Origin: Chloroflexota bacterium
Lineage (GTDB): Bacteria; Chloroflexota; Anaerolineae; Anaerolineales; Villigracilaceae
Assembly (NCBI GenBank): GCA_021824575.1
Contig: JAKAKJ010000075.1
Coordinates: 1 to 64,000 of the forward strand
DNA length: 64,000 bases
Direction of reading: 5' to 3'
The first letter of the stretch is position 1. Every line of letters begins with the position of its first letter. Position numbers and translations under genes: made by a program. Below are positions 33,038 through 41,174 of the stretch, piece after piece. The notes under the pieces are model-generated. The model searched no databases and was not told where the DNA came from. It saw only the letters and a program-made list of their open reading frames with translations.

Positions 33038-36000
33038 CTACTTCATCAATTGCTCAACGCGCGACTCGCCAACGCTATAATATTTCGCGTCCTTGTGATG
33101 GACGATGATCGCGGCGGTAGATTGTTCCGGCATCAATTGGTATGCGGCTGTAAGGTCCATGCCGAGTTCGGTTCTGACGGCAGGCAGCAACTCGAAAACT
33201 TTCTTATGATCTTCGAGTTCGGGAATGGCGGGATAGCCCCATGAGTAACGTTTGCCTTGATCTTCACCGATGCCGAGTTCGCGGCGGATATGTCCGTGTA
33301 AATAATCTGCGGTGGCTTCGGCGGACTGGACAGCGAGCCCGTGGGTGAAATAGCCTTCCGAATAATCACCCGCGGCTTGCAATTTGTCGAAACGTTCGGT
33401 CGCTTCCTGACCAACTGTTACAACCTGGAATGCAACCACATCCATCTTGCCAGACTCAACCGATGCAAAATAATCCGACAAGGCAAGATGATCGTCATAA
33501 GGTTGGCGCGGAAAAGTGAAGCGCGTCAACTCATCGGGCGAAGCAGAGTTGATCGTTTCGGGATCGTAAATAATCAATTCGTCGCCGTCGGATTGACACG
33601 GAAACAAACCATAAACGCCCTGTGGCTTTAGCCACTTGAATCGCAACGCGTCCTTGGTCATTTTCTCAAGCCGTGCATCGAACTCCTTTTGCAGCTTTTC
33701 CCATTCTTCACCATGGGCATTTTTTGCACCCCACGAAAGACGATACAGTTCATTGATGTTGAGATGCTTCAACACAATTTCCAGCGGCATGTCTTTGACG
33801 ACGCGCGGACCCCACTTGAGCGGATGCTTGATCGGCTCAGGCTGGATCGTGGAGCGGGTTTCCGTTTTTCGATATGCGGGTACCTGTGAGGCGCGTCCCA
33901 TTTCCATGTCTGCTTCCTTGCGGATTTGCGCAAGAAGTTCTTCGCGCTTCTCCGGGACGATGAGCTGGTCCATCGTCTCGAGACCCTCGAATGCGTCCTT
34001 GCAATAAAAGACGCCCGGCTCGTGAGCATGGCCATCCTCGGCAAAAAATATGCGCCGTCCAAAGCGACGATTGATGGCCGCGCCGCCAACCAGCACGGGG
34101 AATTTCAAATTGCGGCGATGCAGCTCATTGATGATCAGCGGCATTTGCTTAGAGGTTGAAACCAGCAACGCTGAAAGTCCGATTGCAGTGGCGTTGACTT
34201 CCACAGCTTTGGAAATAATTGTTTCGGCTGGGACTTGCTTTCCAAGATCAATCACATCATAGCCATTGTTGGAGAGAATCGTTTTGACTAAATTCTTGCC
34301 AATGTCATGCACATCGCCGTAGACGGTTGCCAAAACAACCAGTCCCTTGCTTGTGCCTTCTTTCTTCTCAAGATAATTTTCGAGATGCGCGACGCTCTTC
34401 TTCATTACCTCAGCGGATTGGAGCACGAACGGCAAAATTAATTCGCCCGCGCCGAATTTGTCGCCGACTTCTTTCATAGCAGGAAGCAGGACCGTGTTAA
34501 GAATTTCAACGGCCTTCAAGTGATTCGCTTCCCTTTTCCCCTTGTCCCGTATTCCTTCAGGGGTTAAGGGATAAGGGACGAGGGAATCAATATCTGCCTC
34601 GACGCCTTCCTTGTGACGGTGCAGAATGGCCCAATGCAAACGTTGTTCGGGCGTCATGTCTTTTGTTGGATCGGACGCGGCGGATTGTTCAGTGGGCGAG
34701 ACCTTTTCAAAATATTCGATGTAATGTTGGAGCGCGTCGGGATGGCGGTTGAAGATCAAGTCTTCGGCCAACTCGCGTTCCTTCGCGTCGATCTCAGCAT
34801 AAGGCTTGACCTGTGCGGCGTTGACGATAGCCATGTCGAGTCCAGCCTGGATGCAGTGATACAACATGACCGAGTTCAAAACGGGCCGCGCATGTGGGGC
34901 GAGGCCAAAGGACAGATTGCTCACACCAAGCGATGCCATCACGCCGGGTAGATTCTGTTTGATGAGTCGAATGCCTTCAATGGTCTCAATGGCTGAGTTT
35001 GAAAATTCAGGGTCACCAGTTGCGAGCGTAAATGTCAATGCATCGTAGACTAAATCTTCTGGCTTGAGGCCAAACTCATTAACGGCGATGTCGTAGATTC
35101 GTTTGGCAACTTCAAGTTTGCGTTCGCGCGTCTTGGCCATGCCGCTTTCGTCAATCGTCAATACGATGACGGCCGCGTTATGTTCTTTTGCCAGTTTGAA
35201 AACTTTATCGGCTTTCGTGCGGCCTGCCTCGAGATGCGTTGAATTAATTAAACATCGTCCAGGCGCAGTCTTTAGCGCGGTTTCGAGAACATCGAGTTCG
35301 GTTGTGTCAATCACGAGCGGAACGTCCACGCCCATCTCAAGTTTCTTGACGACTTTACGCATCAGTTCGACTTCATCGGGGCGTTCAGTGACGGCGCAGG
35401 AAATGTCCAACGCGTGTGCGCCGCCATTGACTTGCTCGCGCGCCAATTCCAAGATGCCATCGTAATCTTCTTCGAGCAGCATCTTCTTGAACTTGCGCGA
35501 GCCTTGCGCGTTGCATCGCTCGCCGAGCAGAGTTGGCGGAGGATCCTGTCGCATGAGAGTCGCTGACATGGCGGAAGCCAGCTTCGGGTCCGCATGATGC
35601 GGACGCGCGGGGTGCGGACGCGTCCCAAGTTTTTCAATCAACAACTTCAAGTGTTCGGGAGTCGTCCCGCAGCATCCACCGACAACAGAAATATTATGCT
35701 TGGTCACGAATTCATAAAGGTCATTCGCGAACGGTTCAGGCTCGAGCGGATACACTGCTTGACCATCAACGTTCAACGGAAGTCCCGCGTTGGGGATGCA
35801 CGAAACGGGCAGCGTGGAATTTTCGCCGAGGATGCGGATTGGCTCGCGCATATGCTCGGGCCCGGTGGAACAGTTAAGGCCGATGACATCAATGCCCATG
35901 CCTTCGAGGATGGCGAGCGCGGCAGCCACATCGGTGCCGAGCAGCATGCGTCCGGTCGTGTCGAGCGTGACCTGGGCCTGGATCGGCAAATAAATTTGAG

Positions 36001-36682
36001 TCTCGTCGAAGGCTTTGTGGATGCCGGTGATGGCGGCTTTGACTTCGAGAATGTCCTGCGAGGTTTCGATGAGCAGAACGTCCACGCCGCCTCGAATCAG
36101 ACCGATAGCTTGCTCGCGGAAAACATCAGCGAGTTCATCGAAGCCGACGTTGGACAGTTCGGGATCATTCGCGGATGGAAGTTTGCCCGAAGGTCCAATG
36201 GAACCTGCCACGAATCTTGGTTGACCTTCATCAAGATTCTTTGAACCGCGAAGGCCGCTAAGATCGCCAAGATTTAAATCTTTTTCCACTTCGGCTTCGC
36301 TCAGTGCAGGCTTCGCGCTCTTTGCGTGCTTTGCGGTGGAATATTCGTCTGCCAAACGGCGCGCAAGTTTTGCGGCGGTTTCGTTGATCTCGATCACGCG
36401 ATCTTGCAGACCGTATTCCTTCATCGTGATTCGATTTGAACGGAAGGTATCCGTTTCGATCACATCCACGCCGACTTCGAGGAACGAGCGATGGACTTTT
36501 TCCACGGCTTCGGGGTACGAGATGACAAGGTAGTCGTTACATCCGTTGTATTGCTCACCGCCGAAATGCTCGGCAGTGAGATGCTGGTTTTGCAGGCTGG
36601 TTCCCATCGCGCCGTCGAAGACGAGGACTTTCTTTTCGAGGGCGTCAAGGTAGCGGCGGTTGGGGTATTTGCGTTCGATCAT
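33038..36682 (-). CDS. metH: Cobalamin-dependent methionine synthase
   Basis: A 1214-residue four-module enzyme that methylates homocysteine using methyl-THF and B12. The homocysteine module has zinc Cys in GLNCSTGP and GGCCGTTPEH. The pterin module has DISCAVTERPDE. The B12 module has the cobalt-ligand motif DVHDIGKNLV with ALLVSTSKQMP. The C-terminal reactivation domain binds SAM (RYSWGYPAIPELED). Two oddities are seen. Residues about 114-147 are encoded by an intergenic-type repeat (PALSEAEVE-like peptide), and residues about 699-716 by a second palindrome. Both keep frame. GGAGA precedes the ATG. No riboswitch lies directly upstream; a SAM-I element is 2.6 kb away beyond accessory genes. 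Confidence 0.95.
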   Translation of the reverse strand: MIERKYPNRRYLDALEKKVLVFDGAMGTSLQNQHLTAEHFGGEQYNGCNDYLVISYPEAVEKVHRSFLEVGVDVIETDTFRSNRITMKEYGLQDRVIEINETAAKLARRLADEYSTAKHAKSAKPALSEAEVEKDLNLGDLSGLRGSKNLDEGQPRFVAGSIGPSGKLPSANDPELSNVGFDELADVFREQAIGLIRGGVDVLLIETSQDILEVKAAITGIHKAFDETQIYLPIQAQVTLDTTGRMLLGTDVAAALAILEGMGIDVIGLNCSTGPEHMREPIRILGENSTLPVSCIPNAGLPLNVDGQAVYPLEPEPFANDLYEFVTKHNISVVGGCCGTTPEHLKLLIEKLGTRPHPARPHHADPKLASAMSATLMRQDPPPTLLGERCNAQGSRKFKKMLLEEDYDGILELAREQVNGGAHALDISCAVTERPDEVELMRKVVKKLEMGVDVPLVIDTTELDVLETALKTAPGRCLINSTHLEAGRTKADKVFKLAKEHNAAVIVLTIDESGMAKTRERKLEVAKRIYDIAVNEFGLKPEDLVYDALTFTLATGDPEFSNSAIETIEGIRLIKQNLPGVMASLGVSNLSFGLAPHARPVLNSVMLYHCIQAGLDMAIVNAAQVKPYAEIDAKERELAEDLIFNRHPDALQHYIEYFEKVSPTEQSAASDPTKDMTPEQRLHWAILHRHKEGVEADIDSLVPYPLTPEGIRDKGKREANHLKAVEILNTVLLPAMKEVGDKFGAGELILPFVLQSAEVMKKSVAHLENYLEKKEGTSKGLVVLATVYGDVHDIGKNLVKTILSNNGYDVIDLGKQVPAETIISKAVEVNATAIGLSALLVSTSKQMPLIINELHRRNLKFPVLVGGAAINRRFGRRIFFAEDGHAHEPGVFYCKDAFEGLETMDQLIVPEKREELLAQIRKEADMEMGRASQVPAYRKTETRSTIQPEPIKHPLKWGPRVVKDMPLEIVLKHLNINELYRLSWGAKNAHGEEWEKLQKEFDARLEKMTKDALRFKWLKPQGVYGLFPCQSDGDELIIYDPETINSASPDELTRFTFPRQPYDDHLALSDYFASVESGKMDVVAFQVVTVGQEATERFDKLQAAGDYSEGYFTHGLAVQSAEATADYLHGHIRRELGIGEDQGKRYSWGYPAIPELEDHKKVFELLPAVRTELGMDLTAAYQLMPEQSTAAIIVHHKDAKYYSVGESRVEQLMK
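34535..34586. repeat. Palindromic repeat inside metH (CCCTTGTCCCGTATTCC type)
   Basis: TTCCCCTTGTCCCGTATTCC faces GGGATAAGGGACGAGGGAA, an imperfect inverted repeat around a short centre. It encodes about 17 residues (VPYPLTPEGIRDKGK) in the linker between the pterin and B12 modules. Confidence 0.65.
36240..36342. repeat. Interspersed CGCAAAG-type repeat inside metH
   Basis: Starts TTTGAACCGCGAAGGCCGC and ends TTTGCGTGCTTTGCGGTGG, with TTCGGCTTCGCTCAGTGCAG in the middle. The ends match the intergenic repeats at 20648-20722 and 12679-12732. It lengthens the homocysteine-binding domain by about 34 residues without a frameshift. Confidence 0.8.
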
Positions 36683-36727
36683 TAAGTTCTCCTAGTCTTA
36701 CCGTGCTAATATGTTGAATTAGCAAGA

Positions 36728-38023
36728 TTATGTTTTTTGTAAATAAAGTTCTTTTAGAACGTCAAGAATGGCTGAATAAGATGGTTTTGGATTGAAGTCT
36801 TCGTCCAAAATTAAAGGCGCGGCATCAGTATCGCTTGTACCTAAGGCTTTATACCAAGAATCTCCATCATAAACACCATAGTAACCAAAACGACTGTTTG
36901 TCTGAGTGTATGCTTCAAAGGTGTCTTTATATATTTGGGCTTGAGCTTGAAGTTTGTCGTCAACAGTATTTACTGTTCTTCGCCTATTTGGTTCAATTGG
37001 GAATTTGTCGCTTAACACTACAGTAGTTTGAGCATGCCCAACTTTATATCCCATACCCTGAACTTTATTTATTGTTTCAAGCATGCTTTCTGCGCTAGGT
37101 GGTGCAAAAACCCAAAAATTATTTTCAAACGAAACGCCATCAATTGGAATTTGATTTTGTTTTAGATCATCCAATAGTTGGAAGAATGCGTTATATGCCT
37201 GTTGTCGCGCATCCTCGGTTGTTGCATCTAAAATGTTGTCTTCAATTAAATTCAATTGACCAACGGCTCCAACTTCATGTGCCCATGTAAAAGCTAAATG
37301 CACAATATTTGGGTAGCCAATACGTCTCTCCCAAAACGCCGACTTGCTGTCACCCCATAGGTTGCGTGCAACAGGTTCTGATATAACAGACCATTCAGCC
37401 ACTTTGTCTTTGTACCGCAACATTTTTGCCTTTAGCATATACTCCGCTATCTTTGTCAAATCACTTTTAGCAAAGTTAGACGAAAGCAAAGATGGAGGTA
37501 TGTCTTCACTCCAAAGCAAGTTGTCAATCGCTACTTCCATATTGTACTGAGATGCAATGCTAAAGAGACCACCCGCCTCACCACGTCCCCAGGGATTCCA
37601 CAGGATTTCATCAACAAAAGGAATTTGCCCATCTGCTAATTGCTTTTGAACCGTATCCCAATTATCTATAACTTTCTGAAAATCAAATTGACTAAAAATA
37701 TACCTAAAGAACAGATCGTCAGTAATCATTACTTCGTTGGCGATGTTCGCTGCCGTCGTGACATATTGAGGGTTATCTAATTTATCAGTATTAAGCATCA
37801 CGGCGATTTTTATTTTAAGAGCGTCAGCAAATTCTCGGATCGTTTCTGGTGGATGTGGCGTAACAGTAGATGTGGGTTGATGAGTTGAAGTCTCAGTTGA
37901 CAATATTGTTGGAGTTGATAGAGATACTTCGGTGGCCTTCACACCACATGCGGAGAGCGCCAATCCTGCTGAAGTGGCACCAGCTAATTTTAGAAAATCC
38001 CGCCGAGACAGTTTTTGTTTCAT
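36728..38023 (-). CDS. Tat-exported lipoprotein with degenerate GH10 (xylanase-like) domain
   Basis: A 431-residue protein with a twin-arginine signal (SRRDFLKLAG) and a lipobox ending at LSAC, then a Thr-rich spacer and a GH10-like barrel. In GH10 the acid/base Glu is in a WDVVNE strand and the nucleophile in a TELD strand. Here the first site reads EWSVISEP and keeps Glu, but the second reads KVGHAQTTV and has none. Xylanase activity is therefore doubtful; it may bind a glycan. It is visibly more AT-rich than metH and has different codon use, suggesting recent transfer. GGAG precedes the ATG. Confidence 0.65.
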   Translation of the reverse strand: MKQKLSRRDFLKLAGATSAGLALSACGVKATEVSLSTPTILSTETSTHQPTSTVTPHPPETIREFADALKIKIAVMLNTDKLDNPQYVTTAANIANEVMITDDLFFRYIFSQFDFQKVIDNWDTVQKQLADGQIPFVDEILWNPWGRGEAGGLFSIASQYNMEVAIDNLLWSEDIPPSLLSSNFAKSDLTKIAEYMLKAKMLRYKDKVAEWSVISEPVARNLWGDSKSAFWERRIGYPNIVHLAFTWAHEVGAVGQLNLIEDNILDATTEDARQQAYNAFFQLLDDLKQNQIPIDGVSFENNFWVFAPPSAESMLETINKVQGMGYKVGHAQTTVVLSDKFPIEPNRRRTVNTVDDKLQAQAQIYKDTFEAYTQTNSRFGYYGVYDGDSWYKALGTSDTDAAPLILDEDFNPKPSYSAILDVLKELYLQKT

Positions 38024-38042
38024 GAACTACTCCTTTTGAATC

Positions 38043-38164
38043 TTAGTCAGAGCTGACTTTCAATCCTTCTGCATCTTCCAGTGCGGACCTCGCCCAAGCT
38101 TTGATATCTTCGCAATAAACCTCTGTGTTCTCAGTGCGAACATCCAGAATCGTTTTTGTCCATG
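38043..38164 (-). pseudogene. 3' remnant of a second DUF5946 gene
   Basis: On the minus strand this stretch encodes TKTILDVRTENTEVYCEDIK, AWARSALEDAEG and a stop. That is the C-terminus of the DUF5946 protein at 38803-39237 with few amino-acid differences. At DNA level 38071-38164 aligns without gaps to 38831-38924, and most differences are silent. The upstream 5' part is missing, so it cannot be a working gene. Together the two copies flank the DUF433/DUF5615 pair. Confidence 0.85.
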
Positions 38165-38165
38165 C

Positions 38166-38202
38166 AAAAAAATCAAACCCGTTTTCAGGGCGAAAACGGG
38201 TT
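38166..38202 (-). terminator. Rho-independent terminator after the DUF5615 gene
   Basis: AACCCGTTTTC and GAAAACGGGTT form a perfect 11-bp stem around AGGGC. On the minus strand it ends in ATTTTTTT, six bases after the DUF5615 stop. Confidence 0.9.
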
Positions 38203-38207
38203 GGCGT

Positions 38208-38564
38208 CTACTTTATCTTGCGGATGCGATGGCGATTTTCTTCGACCACCACGAACGCTTTTGCCAGCTCCGTTTCGCCGTAGGTTTCAAGAACCTTTTT
38301 CATTTCCATATGAACCGCCTCCATTGTGGAGGGCAACATCCTCATGTAAATCACACCGCTTCCTGCGCCATGCACAAAGACCAGGTTGCCGTAATCCCTG
38401 TCACGGGTTACAAAAATGCGTTTCTCGTCTGTTGCGCGTTTCAAAAGGTCAATATCTTGCGCGCGGGACAAGCCCAGTTGCGAGGCAGTGACAACGTCAT
38501 GTCCATGCTCGATAAGAAAGCGTACGGTCAGGGCGTACACATCCTGATCCAGCAGGAACTTCAT
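38208..38564 (-). CDS. DUF5615 PIN-like toxin of a type II toxin-antitoxin pair
   Basis: A 118-residue protein beginning MKFLLDQDVYAL, with the N-terminal Asp typical of DUF5615 PIN-like nucleases, and a second acidic site in FVTRDRDYGNLVF. Related toxins cleave RNA. The ATG overlaps the stop of the DUF433 gene upstream by four bases, the usual gene order for this pair (antitoxin first). A strong terminator follows. It is not proven to be toxic here. Confidence 0.8.
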   Translation of the reverse strand: MKFLLDQDVYALTVRFLIEHGHDVVTASQLGLSRAQDIDLLKRATDEKRIFVTRDRDYGNLVFVHGAGSGVIYMRMLPSTMEAVHMEMKKVLETYGETELAKAFVVVEENRHRIRKIK

Positions 38565-38791
38565 GCCGTCACCGACGAAATATGAATATCCTCTGCCGCC
38601 ACGAGCGCGATGGCATATTGAAGACAGGCATGAATGTCATCCTTTTTCAAATCGGGATAATAATCTCGAATGATCTGGTCAAAGCTCAAACCTTCGTTGA
38701 CCAGTTCCAGCACGTTTTGCACAGTGATGCGTGTGCCTTTGATGACAGGCTTGCCAAAATGGATTTTGGGGTCAACGGTAATTCGTTCCAT
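38561..38791 (-). CDS. DUF433 antitoxin
   Basis: A 76-residue protein of the DUF433 (VapB-like HTH) family, with the hallmark segment DPKIHFGKPVIKGTRITVQNVLELVNEG. It should bind DNA at its own promoter and neutralise the DUF5615 partner. GAGGTGA precedes the ATG. The gap to the DUF5946 gene upstream is only 11 bases, so all three may be one transcript under the SAM-I riboswitch. Confidence 0.82.
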   Translation of the reverse strand: MERITVDPKIHFGKPVIKGTRITVQNVLELVNEGLSFDQIIRDYYPDLKKDDIHACLQYAIALVAAEDIHISSVTA

Positions 38792-38802
38792 AGGTCACCT
38801 CT

Positions 38803-39237
38803 TTATTTGATTTTATCACCAACGTTCTCGGCGTCTTCCAGTGCGGACCTCGCCCAAGCTTTGATATCTCCGCAGTACACTTCCGCATTCTCCGTGCGGA
38901 CATCCAAAATCGTTTTCTTCCATGTGGTTTTGCTGATGATGCGTTTGCCATCTTTAGATGTGATTTTGAACTTTCTCTTACCGCTGTCAACCAAATCCTT
39001 GTTTTGCTTTCTGATAAAAGATGGCGATTTATTTTCCACGAGAAATTCTCTCAATAACTCTCGCTCGTAAAGCCAGCCTTCCTTTGTCAGCTTGCTGGAA
39101 TGTTGAAGCATGAACGTTGCCACAGTTAAATTATGTACCGTGCCGAAGTAGGCTGGGTCTGAGAATTCCAGCGCCATCAATTCATCGAAACGGGTTCTGC
39201 ATAAAGAATCAACCGCACCGCATTCGGGACAATTCAT
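38803..39237 (-). CDS. DUF5946 family protein
   Basis: A 144-residue protein. The N-terminus MNCPECGAVDSLCRTRFDELMALE carries three Cys (CPEC plus a third) that may hold zinc, followed by EFSDPAYFGTVHNLTVATFMLQH, the family's most recognisable part. The role of DUF5946 is unknown. ATG 39237 is preferred over an upstream in-frame start since GAAGGT lies before it. It sits directly downstream of the SAM-I riboswitch terminator, and its 3' end is duplicated at 38043-38164. Confidence 0.7.
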   Translation of the reverse strand: MNCPECGAVDSLCRTRFDELMALEFSDPAYFGTVHNLTVATFMLQHSSKLTKEGWLYERELLREFLVENKSPSFIRKQNKDLVDSGKRKFKITSKDGKRIISKTTWKKTILDVRTENAEVYCGDIKAWARSALEDAENVGDKIK

Positions 39238-39280
39238 TTCTGCAACCTTCAAACTTTCCAACTTTTTAACCAATTACAAC

Positions 39281-39305
39281 AAAAACGCCTCTCACATGAG
39301 AGGCG
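39281..39305 (-). terminator. Expression-platform terminator of the SAM-I riboswitch
   Basis: CGCCTCTCA-CA-TGAGAGGCG is a perfect 9-bp stem. On the minus strand it is followed by TTTTTG, 44 bases before the DUF5946 start. Confidence 0.88.
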
Positions 39306-39322
39306 ACATAATCATATCATCA

Positions 39323-39498
39323 TCTCTCATCTCCCAGACTGTTGTCTGCCGAAATTGGCACCTGATTTAGTTTCGTAGTTTGTTAGTCGTATAGTTTGAT
39401 GGTTTTTGAACTATCAGACTACCTAACTATTGAACTATCTAACTACATTCGGTTGCCGAGGCGTCATCGGGTCGGTCCCTCAGCCTCTCTGGATGAGT
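39323..39498 (-). promoter_or_regulatory. SAM-I (S-box) riboswitch
   Basis: On the minus strand CTCATCCAGAGAGGCTGAGG, then GACCGACCCGATGACGCC and TCGGCAACC, give the conserved S-box 5' half. AGGTGCCAATTTC followed by GGGAGATGAGAG gives the 3' half and closes P1 (CTCATC with GATGAG). High SAM should favour the terminator at 39281-39305. The nearest downstream gene is DUF5946 rather than a methionine gene; metH starts at 36682. The third stem region is enlarged by a TAGTT-type repeat. Confidence 0.93.
39369..39446. repeat. TAGTT/AACTA repeat inside the SAM-I aptamer
   Basis: Blocks such as AGTTTCGTAGTTTGTTAGTC and ACTATCAGACTACCTAAC with AACTATTGAACTATC form an imperfect palindrome between the conserved 5' and 3' halves of the aptamer. 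It shares words with 6146-6216. Confidence 0.65.
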
Positions 39499-39638
39499 CG
39501 GGCGCAAAACATTGCGTCCCTACTATTGAATTGTTGCGGGAGTTTATCACGGCGGCGAGGGAATGTCAAACCGACGCGTGGCGAGGAGCGGCGATTATAA
39601 TAAGCGTAAATTTTCTAAGTTGAAATGCAGGAGCAATC

Positions 39639-41174
39639 ATGCAGGTTGTGTGGAAGCGATTCAAAGGCTGGATTGGAAAGCCTTTATGGGCGGAGTGGTT
39701 GCTTATACTACTCGCTCTTATTCTTCGCCTGCGTCAATATATTGCAAATCGTTCCTTTTGGGTGGATGAAGCCAACCTCGCTTTAAACATTGTTGAGCGA
39801 ACCTTCCTCGGTCTGACGCAACCATTGGATTATGAACAGGGCGCCCCAATTGGTTTTCTTTTCATAGAAAAATCTATTATTACTGTTCTGTGGAATCAAG
39901 ATTACATTCTTCGACTCTTCCCGCTTATCTCAGGCATTCTCGTTTGTTTTCTTTTTTATCTAATTGCAAAATCGTTTTTAAAAAGTAAGGTAGCGCTTTT
40001 CTTTGCTCTTTTTGTGCTGGCCATTTCCTGGCCGTTGATTTATTATTCCTCCGAGCTTAAACAATATTCCAGCGACGCGATGATCGGCCTGCTGCTCATT
40101 TATCTGTCGCTTCGATGCTTTGGCGATAAGGCTCGATTCAGGGATTTCATCTTGCTCGGAGCTGTGGGTTTTGTGTCCATTTGGATATCACACCCATCGG
40201 CCTTCGTTCTGGCGGGGATCGGCGTTGTGCTTGCGTTTGAGCGATTCATCAAAAAAGCTTACGCGTCTCTTTTCTGGACGATGGGGCTGGGCGCTGCGTG
40301 GGCAGTTTCGTTGGGCACTGAATACTTGGTCTCCCTTCGTTATTTGGTTGGGAACGATTATCTTCGTAATTACTGGGAACATGGCTTTATGCCGTTGCCG
40401 CCCTGGAGCGATCCGGGTTGGTTTCTGCAATCCTATTTGTCCTTGCTGATCACTATCAGTCCGAGCTTGGACCGCTGGTATCTCGCCAGTATTTGTTCAT
40501 TGTTACTTGTCATTGGTATCGTCTCCTTCCTTCTCCGCGATCGGATCAATGGGCTATTGGTTCTCTTGCCTTTTGTGATGGTATCCATCGCCTCTGAGAT
40601 GCAACGGTACCCACTGAGGGGACGGTTCATGCTTTTTTTAGTTCCCTATGCGATTTTGCTGATGGCCGAAGGATTGGGCCGAATATATTCCCTTATCAAT
40701 AAATGGAATCGCGTTGCTGCAATTTTGGTCATTGCGGCCTTGGTCGTAGCACTGCTTTGGGTCCCTCTTACCGGGATAAATGTGAAGTTTCGTACGCCCC
40801 CGCTCGGACAGGATATTAAACCTGTGATGGCTTTTGTCAGCGCAAATAGGGCGCAGAATGATGTTGTTTATGTTTTTCATGGAGCGCGGCCCGCATTTAA
40901 TTACTATGCAACCTTCTACGGGTTTGATAAAGGCGACGTGATTACTGGCCAGGACCTTCCGAACAATCCTGCCCTCAAACAATTCTTCAATGATGTTGAT
41001 CAGTTAAAGGGAAGAGGCAGGGTATGGTTCATCTTTTCAAATATTATCGATTGTGGTGGATGCAAAGGAGATATGGAGACCTATTATGTACAATACCTGA
41101 ACCAATTTGGTTCGGTAATAGATAGCTTTCAAGCCACCGGCGCAGATGTATATTTGTATAATCTAAATCAGTAA
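39639..41174 (+). CDS. GT39-like membrane glycosyltransferase
   Basis: A 511-residue polytopic protein. The first extracytoplasmic loop reads SFWVDEANLALNIVER, the normal acidic DE signature of the family. Then YYSSELKQYSSD follows, as in PMT-like bacterial proteins. About eleven helices precede a soluble C-terminal domain containing VVYVFHGARPAFNYYA. AGGAG precedes the ATG. It is transcribed away from the riboswitch and has lower GC than the housekeeping genes. Acceptor and donor are unknown. Confidence 0.75.
   Translation: MQVVWKRFKGWIGKPLWAEWLLILLALILRLRQYIANRSFWVDEANLALNIVERTFLGLTQPLDYEQGAPIGFLFIEKSIITVLWNQDYILRLFPLISGILVCFLFYLIAKSFLKSKVALFFALFVLAISWPLIYYSSELKQYSSDAMIGLLLIYLSLRCFGDKARFRDFILLGAVGFVSIWISHPSAFVLAGIGVVLAFERFIKKAYASLFWTMGLGAAWAVSLGTEYLVSLRYLVGNDYLRNYWEHGFMPLPPWSDPGWFLQSYLSLLITISPSLDRWYLASICSLLLVIGIVSFLLRDRINGLLVLLPFVMVSIASEMQRYPLRGRFMLFLVPYAILLMAEGLGRIYSLINKWNRVAAILVIAALVVALLWVPLTGINVKFRTPPLGQDIKPVMAFVSANRAQNDVVYVFHGARPAFNYYATFYGFDKGDVITGQDLPNNPALKQFFNDVDQLKGRGRVWFIFSNIIDCGGCKGDMETYYVQYLNQFGSVIDSFQATGADVYLYNLNQ

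Follow-up and report, generated by a model that had tools for sequence, protein, structure and literature searches.

A riboswitch regulon is usually taken to be a set of metabolic genes. In the stretch of DNA analyzed here (hereafter the window: 64,000 nucleotides, positions 1 to 64,000 of the forward strand of contig JAKAKJ010000075.1, assembly GCA_021824575.1), which comes from a Chloroflexota bacterium of the GTDB family Villigracilaceae, an S-adenosylmethionine (SAM)-I riboswitch, or S-box, and the metH gene toward which it points are separated by four other genes. The locus has in common with the classical S-box regulon its aptamer, its leader hairpin and its targets, metH being the last gene of the array and metK and metY lying elsewhere; it differs in that, in most relatives with this leader, up to ~3 kb of varied, unrelated small genes separate it from metH. 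Conserved borders and fast-changing content also mark flexible, or replacement, islands such as those that encode O-antigen or capsule, and the metH interval is like these in its borders, in the rapid change of its content and possibly in homologous recombination through the borders; unlike them, it is short, keeps one orientation and one order, and is fronted by a riboswitch. Integron cassette arrays likewise consist of small single-gene units that share a leader and point in one direction, whereas the order of the metH interval is fixed across genera. Within the block, the two middle genes resemble the known DUF433-DUF5615 gene pair, regarded as a toxin-antitoxin system, in their compact, overlapping arrangement, in the Mut7-C/PIN-like nature of the second one and in the hairpin that follows, and differ in lying behind a SAM riboswitch.

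We propose, with a probability of about 0.68, that in this family the metH operon has the riboswitch as its native leader and that this leader is followed by a fast-changing but order-keeping interval of small genes, of which the window is one example.

SAM-I leaders upstream of metH in the family

In the window's GTDB family, SAM-I was found in 149 of 152 genomes, metH in at least 120 (E 1e-100) and DUF5946 in 40. Among the metH matches listed, those retaining the N-terminal half gave 111 stretches in 110 genomes, and up to 5.5 kb upstream of each metH start (less at contig ends) was scanned with Rfam. The results showed that a SAM-I riboswitch lies on the strand of metH in 69 of the 111 stretches, at 56 to 3186 nt from it, and that at least one gene stands between the two in 58 of these 69 intervals. 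Aptamer length ranged from 96 to 233 nt across the 69 leaders, and a hairpin with a T-tract was present 3′ of the aptamer in 57 of them by a strict scan and in all 69 by a lenient one. The direct riboswitch-metH junction that the original prediction proposed to look for in relatives was present in 10 of the 69 (≤308 nt), including a member of the window's own genus (G045) with 91 nt between aptamer and metH. Of the other members of this genus, G046 holds YdeI-like and SnoaL-like genes in the interval and G047 holds DinB, DUF5946 and peptidase S51 genes; G044 has a partial DUF5946 match and no SAM-I on the contig of metH, and G043 gave no metH match among those listed.

Altogether, 46 distinct contents were counted in the 69 intervals. 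With names assigned by scanning one representative per cluster, the commonest genes at ≥90 bits were YdeI-like (28/69), SnoaL-like (23/69), DUF5946 (20/69, in 10 genera) and GNAT (9/69), and the rarer ones included DinB, IS200-like transposase, HSDR_N-like, peptidase S51, alpha/beta hydrolase, methyladenine-glycosylase-like, TauE, APH, Mrr, 2′-5′ RNA ligase and DUF2199 genes. YdeI-like is an assumed name based on resemblance in sequence; the representative matched neither a Pfam nor an NCBIfam model. Populated intervals were also seen in single-contig genomes (e.g., G136 and G011), and a search of open-licence literature returned no description of an order-preserving variable array behind a SAM-I leader. 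One array, on the minus strand of L125 (G134), contains two SAM-I aptamers, at 2316-2221 and 1224-1129, the second lying ~0.4 kb before metH and after the SnoaL-like and GNAT genes, as though metH had regained a switch of its own.

The leaders of metK and metY served as controls. The sample comprised 187 listed SAM-I places (153 + 34), the first 153 being 150 rows of a longer set plus three, and these were set against 85 metK and 55 metY rows picked by eye for a shared contig, the other 34 against 22 metK and 8 metY rows; a SAM-I place was counted only when the gene lay on the same contig and strand within 20 kb. Junctions to metK were direct in 62 of 62 cases (69-113 nt) and in a further 22 of 22 (69-101 nt), that is, in 84/84, and junctions to metY were direct in 55 of 55 (90-271 nt) and in a further 7 of 7 (97-217 nt), or 62/62; 13 of the 187 places, eight of the first set and five of the second and several of them at contig ends, could not be assigned, and weaker SAM-I places of other genomes were left out. 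Given that the metK and metY junctions are direct, the long populated interval belongs to metH, and neither SAM-I leaders as such nor the assemblies used would account for it.

Gene order within the intervals was analyzed with families built from open reading frames (ORFs) on the metH strand, the opposite strand being checked separately. Repeated family pairs (seen together at least two times) kept the same order in 73 of 73 cases, against a mean of 51.4 and a maximum of 61 in 2000 shuffles, in a test that left out the near-twin intervals L100 and L161, matches below 90 bits and the doubtful clusters c14, c16, c17 and c18. None of the 57 ordered pair types was reversed anywhere, and 16 recurred in at least two genera. 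On the opposite strand of the 69 intervals there were 52 ORFs of at least 100 aa, which we regard as shadows since none of them lies free of metH-strand genes. In 49 of 82 cases, neighbouring interval ORFs were separated by ≤30 nt, and in 44 of 59 the final ORF ended ≤60 nt from metH, a spacing and orientation that fit a single transcript from leader to metH; kinship inflates these order and spacing counts, 28 of the 69 intervals coming from one genus.

Read from leader to metH, the interval begins with a YdeI-like gene, which is followed by SnoaL-like, alpha/beta-hydrolase or DinB genes, next by DUF5946 or GNAT, and finally by HSDR_N-like, membrane, peptidase S51 and further genes. At low SAM, antitermination in the leader would allow transcription of the array with metH as its last gene, and at high SAM the leader would terminate.

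The metH array of the window

On the minus strand of the window, the order is SAM-I, terminator, DUF5946, DUF433, DUF5615, GH10 lipoprotein and metH (Table 1). The original prediction had described a SAM-I riboswitch with a terminator, pointing toward metH, the same four genes in between and a metH without a riboswitch of its own, and this description held: the aptamer scored above the Rfam gathering cut-off of 44.4 bits, each of the four genes matched Pfam models (DUF5946 with 87.1 bits against a cut-off of 28), and no Rfam match above cut-off was found between the aptamer and metH, including directly before metH. The reading frames of the adjacent DUF433 and DUF5615 domains overlap by 4 nt, and the two are a putative antitoxin and toxin, respectively; PADLOC at E 0.01 gave no match for either protein. 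GH10 and metH lie on the same strand, about 45 nt apart. The AT-rich composition that the original prediction noted for GH10 was confirmed, with GC 0.40 and third-codon-position GC (GC3) 0.32 as against 0.53/0.59 for metH and a GC of 0.515 for the whole window, and was less marked in DUF5946 (0.44/0.52), DUF433 (0.46/0.52) and DUF5615 (0.51/0.61); since these values exceed those of GH10, the block is not uniformly AT-rich.

Table 1. Coordinates and evidence for the features of the metH array in the window.
Feature	Position	Strand	Evidence or description
Sigma-70-like promoter candidate	39541..39569	-	TTGACA-17-TAAACT, TG before second hexamer; just upstream of aptamer
SAM-I (S-box) riboswitch aptamer	39324..39499	-	RF00162, 71.4 bits; ~78-nt insert in P3 loop
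Riboswitch intrinsic terminator	39286..39305	-	CGCCTCTC ATGT GAGAGGCG then TTTTT; 8-bp stem; -14.0 kcal/mol
DUF5946 protein	38803..39237 (likely ATG start 39237; ORF 39273-38803)	-	PF19371, 2.1e-24; CxxC...C, helical
DUF433, putative antitoxin	38561..38791	-	PF04255, 6.7e-24; 83.9 bits
DUF5615/Mut7-C-like, putative toxin	38208..38564	-	PF18480, 2.4e-23 (82.5 bits); PF01927, 3.4e-5
Terminator-like hairpin after DUF5615	38176..38202	-	AACCCGTTTTC ... GAAAACGGGTT, then TGATTTTTTT; 12 pairs; -14.7 kcal/mol
Remnant of second DUF5946 3′ end	38068..38164	-	97-nt direct repeat of 38828-38924, 86% identical
GH10-like TAT lipoprotein	36728..38023	-	PF00331, 3.3e-28; 99.3 bits; TAT signal
metH, last gene of array	33038..36682	-	S-methyl_trans, Pterin_bind, B12-binding_2, B12-binding, Met_synt_B12

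Three features of the array go beyond the original prediction: the P3-loop insert, the hairpin after DUF5615 and the DUF5946 remnant. The P3-loop insert (39369-39446, ~78 nt) is AT-rich and folds as a long hairpin; the idea that it is a mobile repeat was unsupported, the genome holding one other match only, and that a partial one. The promoter candidate is weak when taken alone, as five such sites were found in 3.1 kb against a shuffle mean of 5.8. The single other SAM-I found in the window's genome lies 76 nt before metK. The minus strand of the window also carries a T-box leader (22166-21878, 105.7 bits) and a molybdenum-cofactor riboswitch (51994-51860, 54.8 bits). Within metH, the stretch 36218-36352 encodes ~45 residues that are poorly conserved in many relatives, whose tblastn matches start near residue 152, and pieces of it of 22-47 nt match 13 other places in the genome, apparently as a scattered repeat read in frame.

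The tblastn searches of the window's genes against the 111 stretches found GH10 in no other stretch and DUF433-DUF5615 in one other, in a genome of another genus (G070) where DUF5946, DUF433 and DUF5615 precede metH in the window's order, where DUF5615 is likewise followed by a hairpin, and where no SAM-I was found in the 5.5 kb upstream of metH. Because this genome shares both the gene order and the hairpin, DUF433-DUF5615 looks like a module carrying its own terminator. In the window, the hairpin at 38202-38176 sits between DUF5615 and the DUF5946 remnant. The two DUF5946 tails of the window differ at 14 positions, distributed over the three codon positions as 2, 2 and 10, and since 10 of the 14 fall on third positions both tails seem to have diverged while coding. 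A target-site duplication was judged an unlikely source of the second tail on the same count, and recombination between two DUF5946 alleles fits it better. A repeat search of 36000-39700 returned only the DUF5946 tail and short pairs at chance level, with no other repeat between units. We suggest that DUF433-DUF5615 may have entered together with the terminator behind it, through recombination inside DUF5946 alleles, leaving the tail behind. GH10 is the most foreign-looking gene of the window's array, and DUF5946 is a recurrent member.

The original prediction had treated the four genes as one inserted block. DUF433-DUF5615 and GH10 do look newly inserted in the window, being rare in the 111 stretches and, for the former, adjoining the DUF5946 scar, but the part concerning DUF5946 as an intruder had to be given up, since this gene recurs behind SAM-I across genera, the very finding that the original prediction had named as its refutation. 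Of the two consequences foreseen for such an insertion, a putative toxin-antitoxin pair under SAM control or a metH partly uncoupled from it, either could apply in view of the terminator-like hairpin behind DUF5615.

This hairpin is also the basis of the alternative that survives best, which we consider possible with the odds somewhat against it. According to this alternative, the riboswitch of the window would govern only DUF5946-DUF433-DUF5615, transcription would stop at 38202-38176, and GH10-metH would be expressed by read-through only or else from a promoter that lies in the DUF5946 remnant, so that control by SAM would largely have passed from metH to the putative toxin-antitoxin pair. 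The 12 pairs of the hairpin and the TGATTTTTTT that follows them, the 185-nt gap before GH10 and the hairpin behind DUF433-DUF5615 in G070 are all consistent with such a stop. Hairpins of -14 kcal/mol or stronger were found inside 3 of the 69 intervals against 0-2 in shuffles. However, a hairpin is no proof of termination, and the scan of the window gave three terminator-like hairpins against 3.3 in shuffles; a consensus scan, which does not cover other promoter types, gave no promoter-like site in 38175-38024, and GH10 and metH are still co-oriented and closely spaced.

Turnover of the interval and competing explanations

Content turned over quickly even among close relatives, being shared in one of seven genome pairs with metH N-termini at least 97% identical. 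On a metH tree (~230 residues, weakly resolved; 200 shuffles per gene), presence changed 14 times for DUF5946 (17.6 in shuffles; 2/200 as low), 20 times for the YdeI-like gene (21.9; 53/200), 16 times for the SnoaL-like gene (19.4; 13/200) and six times for GNAT (8.6; 0/200). Gene distances correlated with metH distances with r of 0.62 for YdeI-like, 0.63 for DUF5946 and 0.41 for SnoaL-like genes (0/999 permutations each) and of 0.39 for GNAT (32/999). Purifying selection was seen in dN/dS ratios of 0.14 for DUF5946 against the G047 copy, and of 0.08 and 0.13 for DUF433 and DUF5615, respectively, against those of G070. Judged by these measures, the interval genes are under constraint while present, yet their presence changes fast.

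Some of these patterns would also be produced by an ancestral full operon that underwent losses only, in which the YdeI-like, SnoaL-like and DUF5946 genes would be old methionine-regulon genes, often lost and never exchanged. The fixed order, the correlations of 0.41-0.63 for these three genes, the slightly stronger clustering of DUF5946 on the tree than in shuffles and its tail remnant are in keeping with this explanation. We nevertheless think it rather unlikely, given that APH, TauE, thymidylate-kinase-like, Mrr and GH10 genes are each confined to one or two intervals out of 69, that the divergence of the window's two DUF5946 tails as coding sequences points to an incoming allele, and that genomes with nearly identical metH N-termini so seldom share content.

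Loading of the interval by integron-like site-specific cassette capture or by transposition appears improbable. Its units are small and consist of single genes, IS200-like transposase matches, fragments included, occur in nine intervals, and the presence of the YdeI-like gene is nearly random on the metH tree, all of which might be expected from such a process; random entry at one site would not be expected to yield the order kept in 73 of 73 pairs, the distances of the genes correlate with those of metH, and the region 36000-39700 of the window lacks inter-unit repeats beyond the DUF5946 tail and chance-level pairs, attC sites and integrases having not been searched for. Least probable of all is a single recent insertion of a foreign block that split a riboswitch-metH junction, for which the direct junctions in G045 and elsewhere, the AT-rich GH10 and the scar beside DUF433-DUF5615 could be cited, and which was rejected for any block that includes DUF5946, as this gene occupies the same place in 20 of 69 intervals and 10 genera, is constrained and 86% identical to the G047 copy at that place, and at least one gene fills 58 of the 69 intervals.

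Several observations weigh against a native SAM-I leader with an order-keeping interval. No SAM-I was found upstream of 42 of the 111 metH copies, in some cases because contigs end, and the contigs of these 42 copies held none elsewhere except in G068, where it lies 11 kb away beside metY, and a degraded one in G126. Complementarity between the P1 3′ strand and the terminator arm was no better in the 69 leaders than in shuffles (5.26 versus 5.13 bp). Terminator-like hairpins occur inside 12 of the 69 intervals, several of them within genes, against 5-11 in six dinucleotide shuffles; as they are not depleted, they neither favour nor rule out a single transcript, and the lack of internal terminators was dropped as support for it. 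In the window, read-through into metH is doubtful because a strong terminator-like hairpin separates DUF5615 from GH10; this hairpin speaks against a single transcript there and may leave metH less tightly controlled by SAM in the window's genome. Finally, of the 41 places in the family with DUF5946, 28 are found on the metH strand and no more than 6 kb upstream of that gene (the same holds for 38 of the best 47 YdeI-like places), which leaves 13 that are not, and at DUF5946 loci outside the family metH lay within ~1.5 kb in 0 of 24 and SAM-I in 0 of 20. Because of these 13 places and because none of the loci examined outside the family is beside metH or SAM-I, the role of DUF5946 need not be methionine-related. 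The degraded aptamer of G126 (G126:C125:5197-5275; 28.7 bits, below cut-off) stands before YdeI-like, SnoaL-like and apparently frameshifted DUF5946 genes, upstream of metH.

DUF5946 and the meaning of the interval

Weaker relatives of DUF5946 were found in 28 genomes in a draw of 396 of the class (family members included). In a scan of named genomes with a single peptide pattern, 23 loci were obtained, each of them in a record whose title denotes a Chloroflexota metagenome-assembled genome (Chloroflexi, Anaerolineales, Anaerolineae or Anaerolinea), several of which appear to be genomes already used here. An AlphaFold2 model of the protein reached a predicted local distance difference test (pLDDT) score of 88; searched against the PDB, it gave 15 matches at E 10 or better and none at E 0.001 or better, and no function was assigned from the fold. 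NCBIfam has no name for the protein, and nothing on DUF5946, or on DUF433 together with DUF5615, was found in open-licence literature.

A few further DUF5946 loci were recorded. In G111 (L188 602-4374), the genes ahead of a homocysteine methyltransferase/methylenetetrahydrofolate reductase fusion are YdeI-like, DinB, DUF5946 and a membrane gene of the c5 type, this genome having no MetH match at E 1e-100 among the matches listed, and in G125 (L190 1875-4423) DUF5946 directly precedes an ATP-sulfurylase/APS-kinase gene; no comparable neighbour was evident beside DUF5946 in G113 or G002. The window's genome has a second, distant DUF5946 (G000:C14:3324-3761, L184), 24% identical to the first, which is present in G045 as well. 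A role of DUF5946 in the methionine cycle is plausible. More tentatively, the SAM-I/metH interval may be a riboswitch-gated accessory bay, an order-keeping array of rapid turnover in which acquired genes, toxin-antitoxin pairs included, come under SAM control, with a core of uncharacterised proteins (the short YdeI-like protein, DUF5946 and SnoaL-like) forming a hidden methionine-cycle regulon.

In the same genomes, and with the same expected ligand, SAM-I lies right at metK and metY but before a changing array of small genes at metH. The metH case could therefore separate membership in a regulon from merely riding on its transcript, two questions that are usually confounded. The leaders of this family, from direct junctions to five-gene arrays, would form a natural series in which to follow the reach of SAM control down an operon, and DUF5946 and the short YdeI-like family gain a concrete genomic context.

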